Positions 8,349 to 64,000 of a stretch of 64,000 nt of DNA are shown piece by piece. Origin of the DNA: Photorhabdus khanii NC19. Lineage in GTDB: Bacteria > Pseudomonadota > Gammaproteobacteria > Enterobacterales > Enterobacteriaceae. Position numbers and translations under genes: made by a program. The notes under the pieces were generated by a model. It made no database searches, was not told where the DNA came from, and was given only the letters and a program-made list of their open reading frames with translations. Location of the stretch: positions 434,247-498,246 of the forward strand of contig NZ_AYSJ01000002.1 in assembly GCF_000517265.1 (NCBI RefSeq), in the 5' to 3' direction. The stretch's first letter is position 1. The number at the start of each line of letters is the position of its first letter.

Positions 8349-9509
8349 ATGTTTGAACCAATAGAATTAACCAATGATGCGGTGATTAAGGTCATCGGTG
8401 TCGGCGGTGGCGGCGGTAACGCTGTTGAGCACATGGTGCGTGAGCGCATCGAAGGTGTTGAATTCTTTGCAGTAAATACGGATGCTCAGGCATTGCGTAA
8501 AACTGCTGTCGGCCAGACTATCCAGATTGGTAATGGTATTACTAAAGGTCTGGGGGCTGGTGCAAACCCGGAAGTTGGTCGTACTGCTGCGCAAGAGGAT
8601 CGTGATGCATTGCGCACTGCTCTTGATGGTGCGGATATGGTATTTATCGCTGCGGGTATGGGCGGTGGCACTGGCACTGGTGCAGCACCTGTGGTAGCTG
8701 AAATCGCAAAAGAGCTTGGGATTTTGACGGTTGCCGTCGTTACCAAACCTTTCAATTTTGAAGGTAAGAAACGTATGGCATTTGCTGAGCAAGGGATCAC
8801 TGAACTATCCAAACATGTGGATTCATTGATTACCATTCCTAATGACAAACTGCTGAAAGTTCTTGGCCGCGGTATTTCACTACTGGATGCTTTCGGGGCA
8901 GCGAATGACGTCTTGAAAGGAGCGGTTCAGGGTATTGCTGAACTGATCACACGTCCAGGTCTGATGAACGTTGACTTTGCTGACGTGCGTACCGTGATGT
9001 CTGAAATGGGCTACGCGATGATGGGGTCGGGTATTGCGCAGGGTGAAGACCGTGCGGAAGAAGCTGCTGAAATGGCGATTTCCAGCCCACTGCTGGAAGA
9101 TATCGACTTGTCAGGTGCTCGTGGTGTTCTGGTTAACATTACGGCTGGCTTTGATCTGCGTTTGGATGAGTTCGAAACTGTGGGTAACACTATTCGGGCA
9201 TTTGCATCGGATAATGCAACCGTCGTTATCGGTACCTCTCTGGATCCAGACATGAATGATGAATTGCGTGTGACTGTGGTTGCTACGGGTATTGGTATGG
9301 ATAAGCGCCCTGAAATTACGCTGGTTACCAATAAAGCATCTCAGTCAAGCGTAATGGAACACCGTCATCAGCAAATATCTGGCGGTATGTCTTCGCTGTC
9401 AGAAGAAAATAAACCCGCTGCAAAAGTGGTGAATGACCAAAGCGCACAAACTAGCAAGGAACCCGATTATTTGGATATTCCTGCATTTTTGCGTAAACAG
9501 GCCGATTAA
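8349..9509 (+). CDS. ftsZ: Cell division GTPase FtsZ
   Basis: 386 residues. It is the tubulin-like GTPase forming the Z ring. The tubulin signature [11 protein letters not shown] (near residue 105), the N-terminal [12 protein letters not shown] loop, the synergy loop [11 protein letters not shown] and the conserved C-terminal peptide [14 protein letters not shown], which binds FtsA, ZipA and ZapD, are all present. A variable linker of about 50 residues lies before the tail. A Shine-Dalgarno GGAGA lies just upstream. Confidence 0.98.
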
Positions 9510-9607
9510 TAGCTAAAAAATTGGATTCTCCGCTTTTTGTGCTAAACTCCCCCGCCAGCCATAGTGTATAGTGGTTGGCAGGATGGATAACATTGCGAGA
9601 TAAAATG

Positions 9608-10525
9608 ATGATCAAACAAAGGACACTTAAACGTATTGTTCAGGCGACTGGCGTCGGTTTGCACACCGGTAAGAAAGTCACGCTGACAATGCGCCCAGCA
9701 CCGGCTAACACCGGGGTCATCTATCGCCGCACTGACTTGAATCCACCGGTTGATTTTCCGGCAGATGCAAAATCCGTGCGTGATACTATGCTCTGTACTT
9801 GTCTGGTAAATGAGTATGACGTGCGAATCTCAACGGTCGAGCACCTGAATGCAGCGCTTGCAGGGCTGGGTATTGATAATATTATTATCGAAGTTGACGC
9901 GCCAGAAATTCCTATTATGGATGGCAGTGCCAGCCCGTTTGTTTTCCTGCTGTTGGATGCGGGTATTGAAGAGCTGAATACATCTAAAAAATTCCTGCGC
10001 ATTAAAGAAGCTGTGCGTGTGCAAGAGGGCGATAAGTGGGCAGAGATGACACCTTATAATGGTTTCAGTCTGGATTTCACTATTGACTTTAATCACCCTG
10101 CGATTGATTCAAGTTCTCAGCGTTACTGTCTGGATTTTTCAGCGGAAGCGTTTGTTCGCAAAATCAGTCGTGCGCGTACTTTCGGCTTTATGCGTGATAT
10201 TGAGTACTTACAATCTAAAGGCTTATGTTTAGGTGGCAGCTTTGATTGTGCGATTGTTGTTGATGACTACCGCGTACTTAATGAAGATGGCTTGCGTTTT
10301 GAAGACGAATTTGTCCGCCATAAAATGCTGGATGCAATTGGTGATCTGTTTATGTGTGGCTATAACATCATTGGCGCATTTACTGCGTTCAAATCTGGTC
10401 ACGCGCTGAACAATAAACTGCTCCAGGCAGTTTTGGCGCAAGAAAGTGCATGGGAACTGATCACTTTTGAAGATGAAGCTGAAATGCCGCTGGCTTTTCG
10501 TGCTCCATCAACTGTAATGGCATAA
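9608..10525 (+). CDS. lpxC: UDP-3-O-acyl-N-acetylglucosamine deacetylase
   Basis: 305 residues, same as E. coli LpxC. It is a zinc metalloamidase performing the committed step of lipid A synthesis. The zinc-site segments [17 protein letters not shown] (His near 79) and [14 protein letters not shown] are intact, as is the late GHALNNKLL. The frame is open upstream to 9575, and ATG codons exist at 9605 and 9608; 9608 gives the family start [12 protein letters not shown]. It lies downstream of ftsZ with a gap of 98 bases. Confidence 0.97.
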
Positions 10526-10615
10526 CGCTTAGTGTGCCAGAGGATAACTCAATGATGCATCTCAGTGGGTTATGCTATCAGTGATTTGGTTCTCGCTGAT
10601 GTTCTTTACTCAGCG

Positions 10616-11137
10616 TTAGTATTTCTTCTTAGCTGTGCTGGCACTCTCTCCGGCCAGTGCAGCTAATCGCTCTAATCTTTCCTTCAGCTTCTTAGGACTA
10701 CGATTCGCTAATATAATGAGTTCCTTAGCGCTTTCCTGACTTAACTGACGTATCGGTAAGGTTTTGTGATTGTCACTCGTTGTTTTTGCGAAGCTCTGCG
10801 CACTATTGTTATGCTTAATCATTAGTGATGGATTAATCCTAATGTCGATGGAAGACAATGATGGTAGAATTTCGCTTCTTAACGCAGAGAGTAACGTTGG
10901 CAGCTCGTAACGTAGTCTGGTCATCCAACTGGCGTTTCCTGCTTCCAGTACCAGAATTTGTTTGCGATAATTGGCGACCCGGCACCACTGATGTAATTGT
11001 GCGGGAAGTAGGCTGGTAACGGCTCGGTTAAGTTTTAACAACGCGATAGCACGTTGCTGGATAACATGTAGCGGGTTTTTCTCAACGGCAGCGGCGTCTT
11101 CAAAAAGAACATCTAATGATTGTGGGCGGCTATCGCG
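10616..11137 (-). CDS. DUF721 (DciA-like) protein
   Basis: About 173 residues from the ATG at 11137 (MRDSRPQSLDVLFED); the frame is open to 11251, but longer starts would run into secM. The first 100 residues carry the DUF721 pattern: a helix, LLPAQLHQWCRVANYRKQILVLEAGNAS in outline, then a WMTRLRYELPTLLSALR-type helix. The tail is basic and Lys/Arg-rich. In many bacteria DUF721 proteins are DciA, which helps load the replicative helicase DnaB. E. coli instead uses DnaC and has no gene here. Whether this copy still does that job is not shown. It is divergent from secM with only 35 bases between starts. Confidence 0.75.
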   Translation of the reverse strand, partial: RDSRPQSLDVLFEDAAAVEKNPLHVIQQRAIALLKLNRAVTSLLPAQLHQWCRVANYRKQILVLEAGNASWMTRLRYELPTLLSALRSEILPSLSSIDIRINPSLMIKHNNSAQSFAKTTSDNHKTLPIRQLSQESAKELIILANRSPKKLKERLERLAALAGESASTAKKKY

Positions 11138-11172
11138 CATAATAAAAATAGCTCCGATATGATGAAGGATTA

Positions 11173-11697
11173 ATGGGTATTCTAAATCTTTGGCGACAAT
11201 TTGGCAGAGGTTATTTCTGGTCACATCTGTTATTAGGGGTGGTTGCGGCAAGTATTGGCGTTCCTTCCATGTTCTCGGGTGTTACGGATAATATTCCGCA
11301 AACTAATACGTCACCCAGCCAGAGTTGGCAAAATCAGGCTCTATCGGCTTTTGATAACCTGTTCTCATTGCAAAATGTTCAACGTCAGCCTGCCAATGGT
11401 GTTAATTACTGGCAACAACATGCTGTACGCAATGTTATCCGGCAGCTTTCTTTTGCTTTTTCTGTTTCCCAGCCTATGAGCAATGAAACAGCAAAACAAA
11501 GTACCCGGTTAAGCTCTTCCTGTATTCAGCAGCTTGTGCTGGAAACGCTGAATGCATTGTTAATTAGGGAACCTGAGCCACCTGAGCCGGTTTCAGATAT
11601 ACAGTTTCTGACTGTTACACCACAATCTTCTCATACCCTGGTGTTTTGGATTGCCAAAGCTCAAGGTATTCGTGCAGGCCCTGCTGCTTACCTCTGA
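11173..11697 (+). CDS. secM: Secretion monitor SecM, variant arrest peptide
   Basis: 174 residues. SecM is a short exported protein whose translation stalls inside the ribosome when secretion is slow, exposing the secA ribosome binding site. The N-terminus (MGILNLWRQFGRGYFWSHLL then VVAASIGVPS) is the long signal sequence of the family. The C-terminal stall motif WI-AKAQ-GIRAGP is at about residues 159-170, followed by only four residues. The E. coli motif FxxxxWIxxxxGIRAGP has Phe five positions before the Trp; here that position is His154, and a Phe lies directly before the Trp. secA follows 82 bases later. Confidence 0.93.
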   Translation: MGILNLWRQFGRGYFWSHLLLGVVAASIGVPSMFSGVTDNIPQTNTSPSQSWQNQALSAFDNLFSLQNVQRQPANGVNYWQQHAVRNVIRQLSFAFSVSQPMSNETAKQSTRLSSSCIQQLVLETLNALLIREPEPPEPVSDIQFLTVTPQSSHTLVFWIAKAQGIRAGPAAYL

Positions 11698-11779
11698 ATC
11701 TTCGTTTTTTTATAAATTTCGAAATAAATAACTATTTGCTGGCTGCGAGATAGCAGCCTTATCTGAGATGTAACTAACT

Positions 11780-14491
11780 ATGCTGATTAAATTATTAACT
11801 AAGGTTTTTGGTAGTCGTAATGATCGTACACTGCGTCGCATGCGTAAAGTTGTTGATGTCATCAACCGCATGGAACCCGAATTTGAAAAATTGTCTGATG
11901 AAGAGTTGAAGGGTAAAACAGTCGAATTCCGTACTCGTTTGGAAAAAGGTGAATTGCTGGAGAATTTGTTACCTGAAGCATTTGCAACAGTACGCGAAGC
12001 GAGTAAACGTGTATTTGCTATGCGTCATTTTGACGTTCAATTACTGGGTGGTATGGTTCTGAATGAGCGTTGTATTGCTGAGATGCGTACTGGTGAAGGT
12101 AAAACACTCACAGCGACTTTGCCTGCTTATTTGAATGCACTAACTGGACGTGGTGTTCACGTAGTCACCGTGAATGATTATCTGGCACAGCGTGACGCTG
12201 AAAATAACCGTCCATTGTTTGAATTTCTGGGGTTGAGTGTGGGCATCAACCTGCCAGGTATGCCTGCACCCGCTAAACGCGAAGCATATGCGGCGGATAT
12301 TACCTACGGCACTAACAATGAATATGGCTTTGACTATCTTCGTGACAACATGGCATTTAGCCCGGAAGAGCGTGTTCAGCGTAAACTGCATTATGCGCTG
12401 GTGGATGAGGTTGACTCCATTCTGATTGACGAAGCGCGTACCCCATTGATTATTTCTGGCCCGGCTGAAGACAGCTCTGAACTTTATATCAAGGTCAATA
12501 AGCTGATCCCCAAACTGATTCGTCAGGAAAAAGAAGATTCAGAGACTTTCCAAGGAGAAGGCCACTTTTCTGTTGATGAGAAGTCCCGTCAGGTTAACTT
12601 GACAGAACGCGGTCTGGTTTTGGTTGAGCAATTGTTGGTGGAAGCGAAATTGATGGAAGAAGGTGAATCTCTGTATTCACCCACTAACATCATGTTGATG
12701 CACCATGTTACTGCTGCCCTGCGCGCCCATGCTCTGTTTACCCGTGATGTTGACTACATTGTGAAAGAGGGTGAAGTCATTATTGTCGATGAACATACTG
12801 GCCGTACTATGCAGGGGCGTCGCTGGTCTGATGGGTTGCATCAGGCTGTCGAAGCTAAAGAAGGTGTAGAAATTCAGAATGAAAACCAAACTCTGGCTTC
12901 GATTACTTTCCAAAACTACTTCCGTCTGTATGAAAAACTGGCCGGTATGACCGGTACGGCTGATACAGAAGCATTTGAGTTCAGCTCCATTTATAAGCTC
13001 GATACCATTGTGGTGCCGACAAACCGCCCAATGATCCGCAGTGATTTGCCGGATCTGGTTTATATGACCGAAGCTGAAAAAATTGAAGCTATCATTGAAG
13101 ATATCCGCGAACGTACCAGTAAGGGGCAGCCAGTATTGGTGGGAACGATTTCTATTGAAAAATCTGAACTGGTTGCCCGTGAGCTGACGAAAGCCGGTAT
13201 TGAGCACAACGTACTTAACGCTAAATTCCACGCAATGGAAGCGGATATTATTGCTCAGGCGGGTCAGGCGAGTGCGGTAACTATTGCGACTAACATGGCT
13301 GGTCGTGGTACAGATATTGTGCTGGGTGGTAGCTGGCAGGCTGAAATTGCTAAATTGCCGGAACCAACAGACGCTCAGATTGAAGAGATTAAAACTGCAT
13401 GGCAGGAGCGCCATGATATCGTTCTGGCTGCGGGTGGTTTGCACATCATTGGTACCGAGCGTCATGAGTCCCGTCGTATCGATAATCAGTTACGTGGGCG
13501 TTCTGGTCGTCAGGGAGATGCCGGCTCATCTCGTTTCTATTTGTCAATGGAAGATTCACTGATGCGTATTTTTGCATCTGATCGTGTCACTGGCATGATG
13601 CGTAAACTGGGTATGAAACCCGGTGAGGCGATTGAGCATCCGTGGGTAACCAAAGCTATCGCCAATGCTCAACGTAAAGTAGAAAGCCGTAACTTCGATA
13701 TACGCAAACAATTGCTGGAATACGATGATGTTGCTAACGATCAGCGTCGTGCTATTTATGCTCAACGTAACGATTTGCTGGATGTCAGTGATGTTAGTGA
13801 AACTATTAGCAGTATTCGTGAAGATGTATTTAAAGCAACTATTGATGCTTATATTCCGCCTCAATCTTTGGAAGAGATGTGGGATGTAGAAGGCTTGCAG
13901 CAGCGTTTAATGGCTGATTTTGATTTGGAGCTACCGATCAAAGAGTGGTTGGATAAAGAGCCTGATCTACACGAAGAAACTTTACGTGAGCGTATCCTTG
14001 AACAGGCTGTTGAAATCTATAAACGTAAAGAAGAGATTGTCAGTACTGAAATGATGCGTAACTTCGAGAAAGGTATCATGTTGCAGACGCTGGATATGTT
14101 GTGGAAAGAGCATCTGGCAGCAATGGATTACCTGCGTCAAGGTATCCATCTGCGTGGCTATGCTCAGAAAGATCCAAAACAAGAATATAAGCGTGAATCT
14201 TTCGCTATGTTTGCAAACATGCTGGAGTCGCTGAAATATGAAGTGATTAGCACATTGAGTAAAGTTCAGGTGAGATTGCCGGAAGAGGTAGAGGCTCTGG
14301 AGCAACAACGTCGTGCGGAAGCTGAACGTTTGGCAGGACAACAGCAATTAAGCCACGAAGTTGAAAAAGGTGCATTAATGTCTAAAACAGAAGCTCAGAT
14401 TGCCAGTGGTGCTCGTAAAGTGGGTCGTAATGATCCTTGTCCTTGTGAGTCGGGTAAAAAGTATAAACATTGCCACGGGCGCTTGCAGTAA
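11780..14491 (+). CDS. secA: Preprotein translocase ATPase SecA
   Basis: 903 residues (E. coli 901). It is the motor ATPase driving unfolded proteins through SecYEG. Walker [13 protein letters not shown] near residue 102, Walker [16 protein letters not shown], the [10 protein letters not shown] helicase motif, the preprotein cross-linking domain, the arm region and the C-terminal zinc-binding [14 protein letters not shown] used for SecB contact are all present. It is cotranscribed with secM, whose stalling regulates its translation. A hairpin terminator follows the stop. Confidence 0.98.
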
Positions 14492-14497
14492 TGATGA

Positions 14498-14520
14498 AAA
14501 GGCGGGAAACCGCCTTTTTA
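14498..14520 (+). terminator. Rho-independent terminator after secA
   Basis: A GC-rich stem AAGGCGG / CCGCCTT with a GAAA loop followed by a short T run lies seven bases after the secA stop. The shape is a classic intrinsic terminator with a stable tetraloop. Confidence 0.9.
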
Positions 14521-58502: not shown

Positions 58503-59326
58503 TTAATTGTCAATGAAAATCGCTCCGCCAATAGTACAAAAAACATCCGTTGTTGAGACTAGAGAACGATATCTTCAATGTGGAAAAATAAAAGAGAAAC
58601 GAGTCACAGGATAATCTGAAAAATTAGCGATTATCTCAACTATCCGGTCACTCCCCATAATAGTCAATTTCGGTATAATAACATTTGTCTCTATCTTATA
58701 TATTTTGGTGAAAATGATGTAAAATATAAATTTAAAAAAACACCTTTCTTGAGAATTTTTGTTTTTTTTATTGAAGAATAAAAGGTATTTAGAATATTGT
58801 TCCCCGTAACAATGCGAATATGAATTGTTTTTATTTTATACTGAAAACATTTATATGATTTTTTTATTTATAATATAAGACTAAATTTATTTGACAGTTT
58901 TGTATTTGGTGACTATTGTTCTCTCCTGATTAGCAAATGTTATTGCCAATCTAATAATATCATTTGTTATTATTTCTTTTAAATAGAAATAGTATACTTA
59001 AGAAATAATTTAATTTATTGTTTTTATTTGATTTTTTTAAATTGTAACTTTTGTTAAATTAATTTTTATGGGTGATTATATTTTTCTGATAATGAATTGA
59101 AACTGTTTCTAATGTGATAATTTATTATCGCATGTTTGTTTTTAAATTTAGCATCAATATGAGTGTGATTCGTCATTTTAATTACTGATGAATATAGGGT
59201 TATTTTTTTACCATGGATGTAAAGCAGTAAAAATATCCTCACTGTAAGAGGGTAATAATTATTTATCCGTCATTGTTGACAAAATATTTAAAATAAATTG
59301 GCCATAGGCCATACAGGAGTAAATAA
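58503..59326. other. Very AT-rich region upstream of the biosynthetic operon
   Basis: 824 bases without a credible ORF. From about 58700 the DNA is extremely AT-rich with long T and A tracts. It must contain the promoter of the operon at 59327 and is a good target for H-NS-type silencing. Directly before the start codon are the imperfect repeat GGCCATAGGCCAT (59302-59314) and AGGAG (59316-59320). Confidence 0.55.
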
Positions 59327-60760
59327 ATGAAATACGACTTTATTGTCGTTGGTTCAGGCGCAATTGCTGGTTCAATTGCTTATGAATTAGCAAGCAGAAA
59401 TCTTTCGGTTTGTAGGGTTGGAAGTACTGATCGAACCAATGCCGCTTCTAAAGCAGCAGGTGCGATGAATGGTTGTTTTGGCGAAATTACCAGTGGCTTA
59501 TTAGCGAGTGAACACGGTAAGCTGAAATTGAATATGGATTGTATTTCCAAAGAGCTTTGGCCTGCCTGGGCGCAACGGTTAGCTGACTCTTCTGGTGATA
59601 GGCGATCGCTGTTCACCGCTCAAGGGACTCATGTGATACTGAATACTGCCGGGATGGAAGAGATTGATAGTGTTAATTATGACGCTATTGAACAAACCCT
59701 GAACGAATATGCAGCCCCTTATGAAACCGTTGATCCGCGTGAAATTGAATGGTTAAAGCCTAACGATCTGGTGCGTCCGCTTCGTGCTTTATATATTCCT
59801 GATGAACATGCTCTGGATTCGCATTTATTGCTGGAAAAGCTGGATGCGGCATTGGTTGCTGAAGGTGGCGTTCTCAAAGATGAGAATGTTAAGAGTGTAC
59901 TGATTGAAGACGGTTTAGCCATTGGCGTCGAATTGCTCAGTGGTGAGCGTTTAATGGCGGATAAGGTGGTGGTTGCTGCCGGTGTGCACTCGTTGGATCT
60001 GTTATCTAATGTCCCTTCTGTTGTTCGGCAGATCCCGCCGATATTTGCCGGCTATGGGGTATCTATTTTGGTCAAGATGCCAAAAGGCAGAGAATTGCCG
60101 ACGTCGGTGATTCGAACTCCTAACCGGGCATTTGCTTGTGGGCTGCATTGTGTACCCCGTGGTGATGGTGTTCTGTATCTGGGTGCGACAAATATTCTGT
60201 CTGAAAAACCACGCAGTCAGGCGCTGATTTCTGATGTGCAGTTCCTGCTGGATTGTGCGTTAGATCAGTTGGATATTAACTTACATGATGCTGAGATCCT
60301 TTCAATCCAGGTCGGTAACCGGCCAATCCCTGCTGATGGGTTCCCGTTAATTGGTGAATGTGGCGTGAATGGCCTTTGGCTGGCTACCGGGACTTACCGT
60401 GATGGCTTACATCAGTCACCGTTACTGGCAGATTATGTTGCTAATGCGTTGACTGGAATAGAAAATACGCAAATTAACCTGGATTCCTTCAACCCGGTTC
60501 GTCCTCCGTTAGTGGGTTTCTCTCGTGAAGTGATGGCTAAAGAAACCGTCCAGCAAATGCTTGCCACAGGTTACGAATATCGCTGGGATATCAAACCTTA
60601 TTGGTTGCCATTGCTGAATGAAGGCATGACACGTAATTATCAGGATTTGATTGAGTCTCTTCACCCTCAGTTTACACCACCGCCAGAACTGGTTGCTTTC
60701 TCTTATATTTATGAATCCATGCGTGAACGGTTACGTAGTTACTATGAGGCATGGTCATGA
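59327..60760 (+). CDS. FAD-dependent oxidoreductase, DAO/glycine-oxidase type
   Basis: 477 residues with AGGAG upstream. The N-terminus FIVVGSGAIAGSIAYELASR is a Rossmann FAD motif (the last Gly of GxGxxG shifted by one), and NAASKAAGAM is typical of the DAO fold. Near residue 335, NRPIPADGFPLIGECGVNGLWLATG-type spacing matches the C-terminal FAD segment of D-amino-acid and glycine oxidases. About 100 extra C-terminal residues (from NPVRPP) are unlike ThiO. It probably oxidises an amine or amino-acid intermediate. First gene of the operon; it overlaps the methyltransferase by four bases. Confidence 0.85.
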   Translation: MKYDFIVVGSGAIAGSIAYELASRNLSVCRVGSTDRTNAASKAAGAMNGCFGEITSGLLASEHGKLKLNMDCISKELWPAWAQRLADSSGDRRSLFTAQGTHVILNTAGMEEIDSVNYDAIEQTLNEYAAPYETVDPREIEWLKPNDLVRPLRALYIPDEHALDSHLLLEKLDAALVAEGGVLKDENVKSVLIEDGLAIGVELLSGERLMADKVVVAAGVHSLDLLSNVPSVVRQIPPIFAGYGVSILVKMPKGRELPTSVIRTPNRAFACGLHCVPRGDGVLYLGATNILSEKPRSQALISDVQFLLDCALDQLDINLHDAEILSIQVGNRPIPADGFPLIGECGVNGLWLATGTYRDGLHQSPLLADYVANALTGIENTQINLDSFNPVRPPLVGFSREVMAKETVQQMLATGYEYRWDIKPYWLPLLNEGMTRNYQDLIESLHPQFTPPPELVAFSYIYESMRERLRSYYEAWS

Positions 60761-61608
60761 ATTCTTCGCTAAAAGATCAGGCTGCTATTGATAAGGCCAG
60801 GGAATTACTGTCAGGAGCGGGTGTTTGGGATGTGGAAACCGATCTTGATTGCCTGATTGACCGTTATCTGGAAAGGCGCTGTCAGGATCGCGCCCGTGAT
60901 GAATTTATGCTTGCGGTTCATGAGCGCTGTAACCGGATCCCTCTTGGGCATATTGTCGGCATTGCGGATTTTGATGAACTGCCTTTGGTGGTCGGTACGG
61001 GGGTATTTATTCCGCGTCCTCATAGCCAGATTATCCATAAATGGCTGGAGAATGAACATGAAGTACCTCAGGGATCAGGGGTTCTGGATTTATGTTCGGG
61101 GAGTGGTGCTATTGGTTTAGCCATCGCTAAACGTCGCCCGGATTTAAAGGTCACTTGTGTTGAATATGACGACATCGCTTTTCAATACCTGACACGCAAT
61201 ATCAACCGGTTAGCGAGCTGGGAGATTAAAGTCGATGCATTAAAAGCCGATTTACGGGATTGGCAGGCATTTTCGCAATTTAACGGGTCGGTGGCGTTAA
61301 TTGTCGCTAATCCACCTTACGTTCCAGAGCAGCAGACAATATTACCAGAGTGGGAGGAGCATCATCCTTATGTGTCGGTGTATTCCGGGGATGATGGGCT
61401 AGATTTAACGCGGTTGATTATCAAACAAGCCAAACAGTTACTGCAATCAAATGGCTGGTTGGTCATCGAACATGGTGAAAGTCAGGAGGGGAGCGTCAGA
61501 ACATTATTTTCAGACGCCGGTTTTTCCTTGATACGAACAATTATTGATGAAGAGATTTCTGACACAACAGGCAGTTCGGTAATCACTGTAGGTTGTCAGC
61601 TCATTTGA
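60757..61608 (+). CDS. PrmC/HemK-type SAM methyltransferase
   Basis: 283 residues from the ATG that overlaps the previous stop (ATGA) and has GAGG upstream; an ATG two codons earlier is possible. PrmC-like features in order are RIPLGHIVG, VFIPRPHSQ, the SAM loop VLDLCSGSGAIGLAIAKRRP and the NPPY motif VANPPYVPEQQ near residue 185. Housekeeping PrmC methylates glutamine in release factors and sits beside prfA; this copy is inside a metabolite operon, so it may N-methylate a small molecule or protein-bound substrate. That is inference. Confidence 0.88.
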   Translation: MNSSLKDQAAIDKARELLSGAGVWDVETDLDCLIDRYLERRCQDRARDEFMLAVHERCNRIPLGHIVGIADFDELPLVVGTGVFIPRPHSQIIHKWLENEHEVPQGSGVLDLCSGSGAIGLAIAKRRPDLKVTCVEYDDIAFQYLTRNINRLASWEIKVDALKADLRDWQAFSQFNGSVALIVANPPYVPEQQTILPEWEEHHPYVSVYSGDDGLDLTRLIIKQAKQLLQSNGWLVIEHGESQEGSVRTLFSDAGFSLIRTIIDEEISDTTGSSVITVGCQLI

Positions 61609-61632
61609 ATTCAGACAGTTGGAGTCTAGATA

Positions 61633-62907
61633 ATGGATGTAAAACAGAAGCAGGATTGGATGACGATTCGTAAGTCACGGACCACCGGCGCCTTAGCGCA
61701 AGCTATTGATGAAGGTTTGACCAGTTTCACGGTGGTAGAACGTCAAGGTAAGCAAATTACGACAGAAGAAGGCAAAGTTTTTACGGAATTTGTTTCCTGC
61801 TCTTATTTGGGATTAGAACATCATCCTGCGTTAATTGAGGCAGCAAATCAGGCAATGGCCCGGACAGGGATTCATTTGTCATCGTCCCGTGGTGCGATGC
61901 GCCCGCAATATTTGAGGCAACTAGAGGAACTGCTGGAAGAAATTTATCAAGGTGGCTCTGTTGCTGTTTTCACTTCCACCAGTAACGTTCACCTGGGTGT
62001 ATTGCCGTTATTGGGCAGTGGTTCTTTACCTAACTATCCACTTACCCGGCCAGTACATTGGTTGATGGATAAAACGGCTCATGCGTCTATGCAGGTATTA
62101 CGCGGTATTCTCGAACAGTTCGGGCCAGTATCGCGGGTCGATAGTGCGGATGAACAGTCGGTACAGCAAGCTTTGCAAAACTGCGGAGAGGATCAGCGTA
62201 CCCCTGTCCTGCTGATTGATGGTATTGGCTCAATGAATGGCTTGATTCCGGTGGCAGAATTAACCCGAAAATTGGCTGCTGCCGGAGGTTATGTCTATGT
62301 CGATGATGCTCATGGTATTTCCATTGTAGGGCGTCATGGTGCAGGTTACGCCTTTGCTGCACTTGACCATATTTTGCCATCTAACCTCATATTGGCAGGT
62401 TCGTTATCCAAAGCATTTGGTGGTGCGGGCGGTTTTGTGGTTGTTGCGGGTGCCGATGATATTGAAGTGATTAGTACCCTGGCTAATCCTCTGGTTTTTG
62501 GTCATTCGATTATGGTGCCGATGTTGGCCGCTAACGTTGCCGCAGCAAAACTTCATCTTAGCCTTGAAATAGAAATCCGCCAGGAACAGCTATGGAAGAA
62601 CGTTAATTTGTTTGATTCCCTGACGGGTAACAGCCTGATGAATGCCGGTGTGCAATCTCCTGTTCGTGGTGCTTTATTCGAAAATGAAGCTGAAGGTCTT
62701 GAAGCTGCACGTCTGCTGCGCGACAACGGCATCTTATTGTTCCCGGTATTTTATCCACTCGTCCAGGATGGCAATGCCATGTTGCGTTTTGCCTTCTCCA
62801 GTGAGCATAAGGAGAGTGAAATCAGTCATTTAGTAAATACCTTATTCAAAATACGGGAAAAAGGGCTGAATTGGTCTGAGCCACAAGCCATAGCTCCACA
62901 GGTATAA
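61633..62907 (+). CDS. Alpha-oxoamine synthase-type PLP enzyme (KBL/BioF family)
   Basis: 424 residues. The order of motifs is that of 2-amino-3-ketobutyrate CoA ligase and 8-amino-7-oxononanoate synthase: SCSYLGLEHHP near 55, DKTAHAS (His150 to stack on PLP), YVDDAHGISIVGRHGAGY (Asp224, His227), and the PLP lysine in AGSLSKAFGGAGG (Lys260). Members condense an amino acid with an acyl thioester, losing CO2. Lack of housekeeping partners (bio or tdh) and presence of pap-type genes argue for secondary metabolism. An exact substrate cannot be read. Confidence 0.85.
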   Translation: MDVKQKQDWMTIRKSRTTGALAQAIDEGLTSFTVVERQGKQITTEEGKVFTEFVSCSYLGLEHHPALIEAANQAMARTGIHLSSSRGAMRPQYLRQLEELLEEIYQGGSVAVFTSTSNVHLGVLPLLGSGSLPNYPLTRPVHWLMDKTAHASMQVLRGILEQFGPVSRVDSADEQSVQQALQNCGEDQRTPVLLIDGIGSMNGLIPVAELTRKLAAAGGYVYVDDAHGISIVGRHGAGYAFAALDHILPSNLILAGSLSKAFGGAGGFVVVAGADDIEVISTLANPLVFGHSIMVPMLAANVAAAKLHLSLEIEIRQEQLWKNVNLFDSLTGNSLMNAGVQSPVRGALFENEAEGLEAARLLRDNGILLFPVFYPLVQDGNAMLRFAFSSEHKESEISHLVNTLFKIREKGLNWSEPQAIAPQV

Positions 62908-62950
62908 GTGACATAGATTTATTGATGAAAATGATTGAAATAAACCAGTA

Positions 62951-63307
62951 ATGAAGACCAAATATATGACTCAATCAATAATAGATAAGCAGGACATATT
63001 GCAACCTCATAGGGAATCTCTGGATGTGATTAATATGCAGATATTGGCGCTTCTTTCTGAACGTATGCAGATCTGTATGAAAATCGCTGAGATAAAAGCG
63101 GAACAGGATATTCCGATGATGCAGCCACAACGTATTACCTCGTTATTGGCTATATTGAGGGATAAGTCAACGGATTTTGGGTTACGGCCTGAATACACTG
63201 AATCAATATTTCAACGGGTTATTGAAGAAACCTGCCATCGAGAAGAAGAGCTGATTGATCAGTTGCTACACGAGAAAGCAAAGAATAATGAAAATACTGC
63301 TCATTGA
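62951..63307 (+). CDS. papB: AroQ-type chorismate mutase, possibly 4-amino-4-deoxychorismate mutase
   Basis: 118 residues (Met at 62951 or 62966 could start). An all-helical AroQ domain covers HRESLDVINMQILALLSERM to the C-terminal helix. Aligned to E. coli chorismate mutase numbering, Arg11, Arg28, Lys39 and Arg51 are kept, but Asp48 is Gln and Glu52 is Ile; Glu52 contacts the C4 hydroxyl of chorismate. The next gene is PabA-like, as in papABC clusters of chloramphenicol and pristinamycin producers, so 4-amino-4-deoxychorismate may be the substrate. It overlaps that gene by 20 bases. Confidence 0.72.
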   Translation: MKTKYMTQSIIDKQDILQPHRESLDVINMQILALLSERMQICMKIAEIKAEQDIPMMQPQRITSLLAILRDKSTDFGLRPEYTESIFQRVIEETCHREEELIDQLLHEKAKNNENTAH

Positions 63308-64000
63308 TAATTATGATTCTTTTACGCAAAACATTGCTCAATATCTGTATGAAGTTACCGGGAGTGTGCCATCTGTCGTCACCAATTCTCTGACTTATGA
63401 AGCGCTGGCGATAGACAATTATGATGCTGTCGTGCTTTCTCCAGGGCCAGGGCATCCGGCTGAAAACAGCGATTTTGGTGTCTGTGCTGAGGTCATTGCC
63501 CGCGCCGAAATCCCATTATTGGGTATTTGCCTCGGCCATCAGGGAATTAGCCTGGCATTTGGTGGTTTTGTCGAACATGCACCTAATCCGGTGCATGGTT
63601 ATCGCAGTCGCATCAGGAATACCGGGGAAGGGTTATTCCTCGGTTTGCCTGAGCAATTTGAAGTGGTCAGGTACCACTCGCTGGTCTGTACCCGGCTGCC
63701 GGACAATCTTAAATGTACTGCCTGGACTGATGATGGCTTAATTATGGCAATTGAACACACCCAAAGACCGATTTGGGGTGTTCAGTTTCATCCTGAGTCG
63801 ATTGATTCTGAATATGGGCGTGAATTACTGAGTAATTTTGTTCGTATAGCAAAGACGTATAAAGAAAATAACGGGCAGGATATTACCGCTCAGAATCAGT
63901 GTATTTCTGCCAATGAAGCTTATCTGGCGGTGGGCGGAAAGCCGCATCTCAACCTGAATTACCGTGAATGTCAGAGCATCATCGATCCTGAATCTCTGTT
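63288..64000 (+). CDS. papA: PabA-PabB type 4-amino-4-deoxychorismate synthase, N-terminal part
   Basis: Open from ATG 63288 to the window end (237 codons visible, 3' end missing). Residues 1-190 are a class I glutamine amidotransferase: LLIDNYDSFT, SPGPGHP (51-57), catalytic Cys81 in GICLGHQ, His168 and Glu170 in GVQFHPES. The frame continues without stop past residue 190 with AYLAVGGKPHLNLNYRE, so it is fused to another domain, presumably chorismate-binding. Glutaminase-first order fits PapA/PabAB fusions, not PhzE. An anthranilate-synthase type product cannot be excluded. Confidence 0.85.
   Translation, partial: MKILLIDNYDSFTQNIAQYLYEVTGSVPSVVTNSLTYEALAIDNYDAVVLSPGPGHPAENSDFGVCAEVIARAEIPLLGICLGHQGISLAFGGFVEHAPNPVHGYRSRIRNTGEGLFLGLPEQFEVVRYHSLVCTRLPDNLKCTAWTDDGLIMAIEHTQRPIWGVQFHPESIDSEYGRELLSNFVRIAKTYKENNGQDITAQNQCISANEAYLAVGGKPHLNLNYRECQSIIDPESL

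Follow-up and report, generated by a model that had tools for sequence, protein, structure and literature searches.

The closest described relative of the operon studied here is plu3567-plu3561 of Photorhabdus luminescens TT01, which was tabulated in 2008; its seven genes carry the same annotations, among them "similar to N-formimidoyl fortimicin A synthase" (PMC2422844). Expression of plu3567-plu3561 is insect-induced, by 3.8-fold, fluorescent cells were observed after insect passage and none in complex medium, and the proposed product was an antibiotic not yet known (PMC2422844). In 2023, p-aminophenylalanine (PAPA) and N-methyl-PAPA were assigned to the operon (PMC10764021). We analyzed the orthologous operon of Photorhabdus khanii NC19, which begins near the right end of a 64,000-nucleotide window (bases 434247-498246 of contig 2, in a genome of 5.23 Mb) and continues past it. 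With moderate confidence, we read it as a seven-gene secondary-metabolite operon that combines PAPA formation with N-methylation, oxoamine condensation, formimidoylation and export.

The initial annotation of the window, made from the sequence alone, had predicted a 4-aminophenylalanine-like unit, in agreement with the two compounds credited to the operon (PMC10764021), and knew of no described pathway with this set of genes. This last statement does not hold: plu3567-plu3561 is orthologous to the operon, which, given that published gene list, is a known described cluster (PMC2422844). The gene set is thus already in print, and the operon is a variant of PAPA-type biosynthesis and not a different kind of pathway. 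Taken as a whole, the earlier interpretation is partly supported. A named final product of the operon was not found in the literature searched, in which subscription papers were poorly covered. What the present analysis contributes is the Orf1-type assignment of the flavin adenine dinucleotide (FAD) gene, the spread of the seven-gene set and, as a suggestion, a route over an aminoketone to an imidazole.

The FAD Enzyme Resembles N-Formimidoyl Synthases

The first gene (59327..60760, plus strand) is the ortholog of plu3567 and encodes a 477-amino-acid protein of the Pfam DAO family. Its best match in the Protein Data Bank (PDB) is the N-formimidoyl synthase Orf1 (342 bits, residues 3-473, 40% identity), and this whole-length homology takes in the extra C-terminal part that glycine oxidases lack. 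Glycine oxidases gave at most 55.8 bits in the PDB sequence search, and the NCBIfam equivalog for ThiO scored 121.1 against a cut-off of 250.8, so that a plain ThiO glycine oxidase was rejected. The "FAD oxidase" of the initial annotation can be sharpened, from sequence, to an Orf1-type N-formimidoyl synthase. Orf1 oxidizes glycine at its FAD, carries the glycine imine as an N-O-S (NOS) adduct on Cys281, transfers the CH=NH group to an amine, and accepts several amines; with 15N-glycine, 1-13C-glycine and 2-13C,15N-glycine, mass shifts of +1, +0 and +2 Da, respectively, were reported for Orf1 (PMC10156733).

With the Orf1 numbering verified on the published peptide, residues A54, G55, A56, M57, C281, H284, Y294, T298, R342, R368 and E426 of Orf1 are retained in the operon protein (in its own numbering these include A44, G45, A46, M47, C271, H274, Y284, R332, R358 and E417). 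Of the acceptor-site residues, F279, R306, F316, T423 and W435 are retained and E313 is an aspartate, and six are replaced (S310L, E312S, E434Y, M438L, T466A and F470I), a pattern that does not match the aminoglycoside/streptothricin acceptor site of Orf1. Because the catalytic residues are retained and six acceptor-site residues are replaced, the formimidoyl chemistry is probably kept in the FAD enzyme and its acceptor probably differs from that of Orf1.

The Operon Combines an Oxoamine Synthase With PAPA-Type Genes

The third gene (61633..62907, plus strand; plu3565 ortholog) encodes a 424-amino-acid alpha-oxoamine synthase dependent on pyridoxal phosphate (PLP). It reached 491 bits with NCBIfam PRK07505 (cut-off 342) and contains the motifs SLSKAFGG, with the PLP lysine, and DKTAHASM. 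Its PDB matches include Alb29 (8xha, E 6.7e-39), which is reported to use L-glutamate and acyl-coenzyme A (acyl-CoA) substrates (PMC11906848). As Pfam searches found no acyl-CoA ligase among the seven operon proteins, PAPA is a likelier amino-acid partner of the oxoamine synthase than acyl donor. A second, broken oxoamine-synthase-like gene (41% identity to that of the operon) is present in another cluster of the same genome, on contig 13 (33000-52000, locus L035) at 9131-14514; its neighbors are an O-methyltransferase gene, a gene for a 322-amino-acid protein, a gene resembling the major facilitator superfamily (MFS) and a weak AMP-binding match.

The genes for the PAPA half follow on the plus strand. 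The plu3564 ortholog (62951..63307, 118 amino acids) is a papB-like mutase gene whose product belongs to the AroQ-type fold family (Pfam CM_2, 73.1 bits, cut-off 27) and stays below the cut-off of the NCBIfam CM-like model (61.9, cut-off 73.35). The plu3563 ortholog is a papA-like PabA-PabB fusion of 689 amino acids that starts with an ATG at 63288, crosses the window edge at 64000 and ends at 65357, and it overlaps papB by 20 bases (63288-63307). Reading past 64000 bore out two predictions of the initial annotation: a PabB-type domain completes papA (NCBIfam pabB 349.2 bits, cut-off 328.4; motif PIKGTRPRG), and papA is adjoined by a papC-like gene for a 290-amino-acid dehydrogenase of the TyrA, or prephenate dehydrogenase, family (65354-66226; Pfam PDH_C 29.1, cut-off 22). 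The outcome named there as contrary, a TrpE domain followed by trp genes, was not found; the fusion misses the TrpE model (trpE_most 317.9, cut-off 517.7) and no trp genes come after papA. The exact PIKGTRPRG motif occurs in 37 of the 56 PapA rows from other loci, and a looser form is absent from eight rows, some of them partial. The papB-papA-papC genes of Pseudomonas fluorescens SBW25 give PAPA in Escherichia coli (PMC4863162).

The second gene (plu3566 ortholog, plus strand) encodes a HemK-family methyltransferase with an NPPY motif (hemK_fam 127.5 bits, cut-off 115.5) and runs from 60757 to 61608 (283 amino acids) or starts at an ATG at 60751 (285 amino acids). It overlaps the FAD gene by four bases with the second in-frame ATG (60757) and by ten with the first (60751). 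A plain PrmC was rejected, as the PrmC equivalog scored 178, below its cut-off of 199.1. The five plus-strand genes of the initial annotation and its two overlaps, of 4 and 20 bases, agree with these coordinates, the last gene leaving the window. The seventh gene, past the window, is an MFS gene (66249-67781, with an ATG at 66249).

The Gene Set Is Conserved in Photorhabdus and Found in Other Phyla

The order of the seven genes was identical in all 11 other genomes of the genus that were fetched, and the FAD enzyme shares 98% identity with its counterparts in Photorhabdus tasmaniensis and P. thracensis. Among 13 Photorhabdus copies of the operon, no internal stops were present in the aligned parts, and the median pairwise ratio of nonsynonymous to synonymous substitution rates (dN/dS) was 0.050 for the FAD gene, 0.113 for the methyltransferase, 0.069 for the oxoamine synthase, 0.182 for papB, 0.086 for papA, 0.154 for papC and 0.085 for the MFS gene. 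With its constant order, lack of stops and low dN/dS, the operon architecture is conserved beyond chance. A megablast search of the operon against plasmids gave no match.

To find relatives, a genome collection was scanned with two conserved peptides; 193 were found, and the best 80 loci were examined for neighbors, which were counted when the match spanned 30% or more of the query and lay no further than 12 kb from the FAD gene. All seven genes lie near the FAD gene in 37 of the 80 loci, the oxoamine synthase in 53 and at least one pap gene in 55. At least one pap gene accompanies 52 of the 53 oxoamine synthases, the other locus being a truncated contig. The full set occurs in Photorhabdus, Pseudomonas, Photobacterium, Vibrio, Paucimonas and one Xenorhabdus (Xenorhabdus sp. 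IM139775, L050; 53-78% identity across the seven genes). The FAD, methyltransferase and oxoamine synthase genes are found in five Streptomyces loci and one of Rathayibacter, where pap genes lie some kb downstream and, in some of these loci, also upstream on the opposite strand. In S. nanshensis (L087) the intervening genes encode an MFS protein, an amino-acid ligase of the ATP-grasp type and a PaaK-like, AMP-binding protein; a GNAT protein and a class II 3-deoxy-D-arabino-heptulosonate 7-phosphate synthase are encoded in the vicinity. In Lentzea, Actinocrispum, Nocardiopsis and other Streptomyces the pap genes come before the oxoamine synthase and FAD genes; the gene set is thus kept, while gammaproteobacteria and some actinomycetes arrange it in different orders. 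Pairwise identities of FAD enzyme and oxoamine synthase over 50 loci were correlated (Spearman 0.918, 1225 non-independent pairs). Both proteins are rare in samples of the phylum: among 398 sampled Pseudomonadota genomes, only that of the window itself gave a match to the FAD enzyme at E 1e-30, and the same held for the oxoamine synthase at E 1e-50.

A GNAT acetyltransferase gene adjoins the actinomycete cassettes L087, L091, L094, L099, L103 and L107 (identified by Pfam in L087 and, in the rest, by visual inspection of the N-terminal 50 residues) and could serve self-resistance via N-acetylation. On plasmid pAtCFBP5499c of Agrobacterium tumefaciens (L121, 11983-18829), a relative of the FAD enzyme with 39% identity is encoded in a run of genes that includes dehydrogenases and one annotated "anthranilate synthase family protein," perhaps another formimidoyl pathway.

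Genes of the LuxR and LuxI types immediately precede the operon in Photobacterium (L070). When 23 loci were compared by clustering, LuxI-like genes were found 5' of the operon in L069, L070, L071 and L076, and LuxR-like genes in L070, L071, L076, L082 and L084; Pfam confirmation of these regulators covers L070, where both were confirmed, and L084. The gene set is shared by Pseudomonas, vibrios, one Xenorhabdus and, in rearranged form, actinomycetes, and some copies lie downstream of luxR/luxI; this suggests that the product has a role in communities.

The acceptor side of the FAD enzyme was compared with the presence of the oxoamine synthase, using the 54 loci with any oxoamine-synthase hit (the 53 loci and L065, a fragment). 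Positions 279, 298, 313, 316, 423 and 435, on the acceptor or adduct side, are invariant across the 54 loci. Nine copies from Xenorhabdus whose FAD gene stands alone share four of the six positions and differ at 313 (6/9) and 423 (9/9). In one actinomycete branch, the nine loci that have an oxoamine synthase agree at positions 423 and 466, whereas those without it are mixed. The presence of the oxoamine synthase requires seven changes on the FAD tree. Since the rows are related, the dependence of the acceptor on the oxoamine synthase is suggestive only.

Proposed Pathway and Alternative Explanations

In the pathway that we propose, PapA, PapB and the PapC-like enzyme would convert chorismate to 4-aminophenylpyruvate, a housekeeping aminotransferase would form PAPA from it, and the HemK-family enzyme would N-methylate the aniline nitrogen. 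The oxoamine synthase would then condense (N-methyl)PAPA with an acyl-CoA to an alpha-aminoketone under loss of CO2. The FAD enzyme would oxidize glycine and pass CH=NH via Cys271 to an amine, for which the aminoketone's alpha-amine is the likeliest candidate, and the MFS protein would export the product. An N-formimidoylated alpha-aminoketone is suggested because the oxoamine synthase adjoins the formimidoyl synthase. The steps to PAPA and N-methyl-PAPA have their basis in the literature and in homology, and the transfer of a glycine-derived formimidoyl group is probable from residue conservation; we infer PAPA as the oxoamine-synthase substrate, the acyl donor, the acceptor, a ring closure, export and an antibiotic role.

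Closure of an amidine beside a ketone to an imidazole is reasonable chemistry. By such a route, via the cysteine NOS adduct, the amidine and the neighboring ketone might lose water to give a 4-(aminobenzyl)-5-alkylimidazole, an outcome that we regard as rather doubtful. With acetyl-CoA, the predicted [M+H]+ would be 188.1182 (C11H13N3), or 202.1339 (C12H15N3) for the N-methylated compound. If true, Photorhabdus, Pseudomonas and vibrios would all use the cassette to make imidazoles of this type, with longer relatives in actinomycetes, and the ring closure would be a new enzyme logic for imidazoles, by a route not on record. The NOS-cysteine reading together with the oxoamine synthase would also give the "unknown antibiotic" of 2008 predicted masses.

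Several observations weigh against the proposed pathway. Conservation of the cysteine across the 80 loci follows in part from the way they were collected, because NRAFACGL served as a search peptide. Variants of the oxoamine synthase ThAOS failed to use L-Phe, L-Tyr and L-Glu (PMC11906848), and the ThAOS residue that governs amino-acid size falls at differing positions in the operon protein, as two printed alignments disagree. Among papC rows with at least 150 aligned residues, 52 of 53, including that of the window, have the histidine equivalent to His197 of E. coli TyrA (one row has a gap). Absence of this histidine was taken as a mark of PapC (PMC1173090), and because it is present we speak of a PapC-like enzyme. 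Either the mark, which came from few sequences, fails in this branch or the substrate differs; that PAPA production is credited to the operon favors the former. Lysinibacillus has the FAD, methyltransferase, pap and MFS genes, and an oxoamine synthase is absent from both the locus and the genome (E 1e-35), so that an aminoketone is not necessarily required for formimidoyl transfer. Solo FAD genes also exist, at nine Xenorhabdus loci in eight genomes (L067, L068, L072-L075, L077, L078 and L102, at about 10000-11430). PapC matches in these genomes reach only 26-29% in frames of 383-406 amino acids, as for TyrA, and X. budapestensis has a distant relative of the oxoamine synthase (31%). As their acceptor-side residues are changed and pap genes are absent, the solo Xenorhabdus enzymes probably act on another amine.

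The operon might instead yield PAPA and N-methyl-PAPA only, as building blocks of GameXPeptides E-H for a distant nonribosomal peptide synthetase, with the FAD and oxoamine enzymes forming side products or using other substrates. Exactly these two compounds are credited to the operon (PMC10764021), and the MFS and methyltransferase genes are consistent with such an output. The FAD enzyme and the oxoamine synthase are, however, the most constrained proteins of the operon in Photorhabdus (dN/dS 0.050 and 0.069), and the whole set is retained in Pseudomonas, Vibrio and others, which makes this explanation unlikely. We also consider it improbable that PAPA itself, or its aniline nitrogen, receives the formimidoyl group from the FAD enzyme to give an acyclic amidine, with the oxoamine synthase in a separate branch or acting later. 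The Lysinibacillus set, which has no oxoamine synthase, and the use of several amines by Orf1 (PMC10156733) would fit such an amidine, but the acceptor-side residues track the presence of the oxoamine synthase, a signal weakened by the relatedness of the rows.

Very remote is a duplicated set for primary metabolism, supplying anthranilate, folate or tyrosine, with accessory genes. Every pap enzyme has relatives in primary metabolism and the PapC-like enzyme has the TyrA histidine, but the TrpE cut-offs are missed, PIKGT is present and a separate TyrA-like gene exists elsewhere in the genome, and on these grounds anthranilate, folate and tyrosine metabolism were rejected. The FAD enzyme, the oxoamine synthase and the efflux gene also have no place in such metabolism, and at the cut-offs used the first two occur only in the window's genome within the 398-genome phylum samples. 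A product like amiclenomycin or stravidin was also considered and was rejected, as no result supported it.

Sequences Flanking the Operon

A match to the motif that PMC2422844 (Table 1) gives for the insect-responsive promoter of plu3567 lies upstream of the FAD gene at 59259..59285 on the plus strand, and the motif is recognizable, with differences, 5' of this gene in the 13 aligned Photorhabdus copies. A terminator-like hairpin, by consensus match only, is found past the window at 67791-67815. Directly 3' of the operon (L002, 10440-13614, where adding 57753 converts L002 positions to those of the window) are a transposase-like gene and a two-partner-secretion transporter-like gene, the latter identified by eye. 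Also past the window (L003, 10543-19015), at least three neighboring genes encode glycine/asparagine-rich "GGNGG" proteins with a common N-terminal part.

Comparison With Known Systems

The operon shares its seven gene types, their order and the promoter motif region with plu3567-plu3561, the "PAPA operon," and, as its ortholog, shows no difference in gene list; formimidoyl chemistry, a changed acceptor and the spread to other phyla are absent from the parts of that literature that were available. Its oxoamine synthase resembles Alb29 (albogrisin) and KtmB (ketomemicin), which are PLP oxoamine synthases of natural-product pathways with Alb29 among the nearest sequences of solved structure, but identity is low and the available text of PMC11906848 mentions no formimidoyl synthase alongside them. 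The FAD enzyme shares full-length homology and the catalytic residues, including the NOS cysteine, with the N-formimidoyl synthases Orf1 (BD-12) and Fsm14 (fortimicin), and differs from them in its six acceptor-site replacements and in lying in an operon without aminoglycoside genes. Like the papA/papB/papC systems of pristinamycin and chloramphenicol producers and of P. fluorescens, the operon encodes an aminodeoxychorismate synthase fusion, an AroQ mutase and a TyrA-like dehydrogenase; unlike them, it retains the histidine said to mark non-PapC enzymes and adds an oxoamine synthase and a putative formimidoyl synthase.

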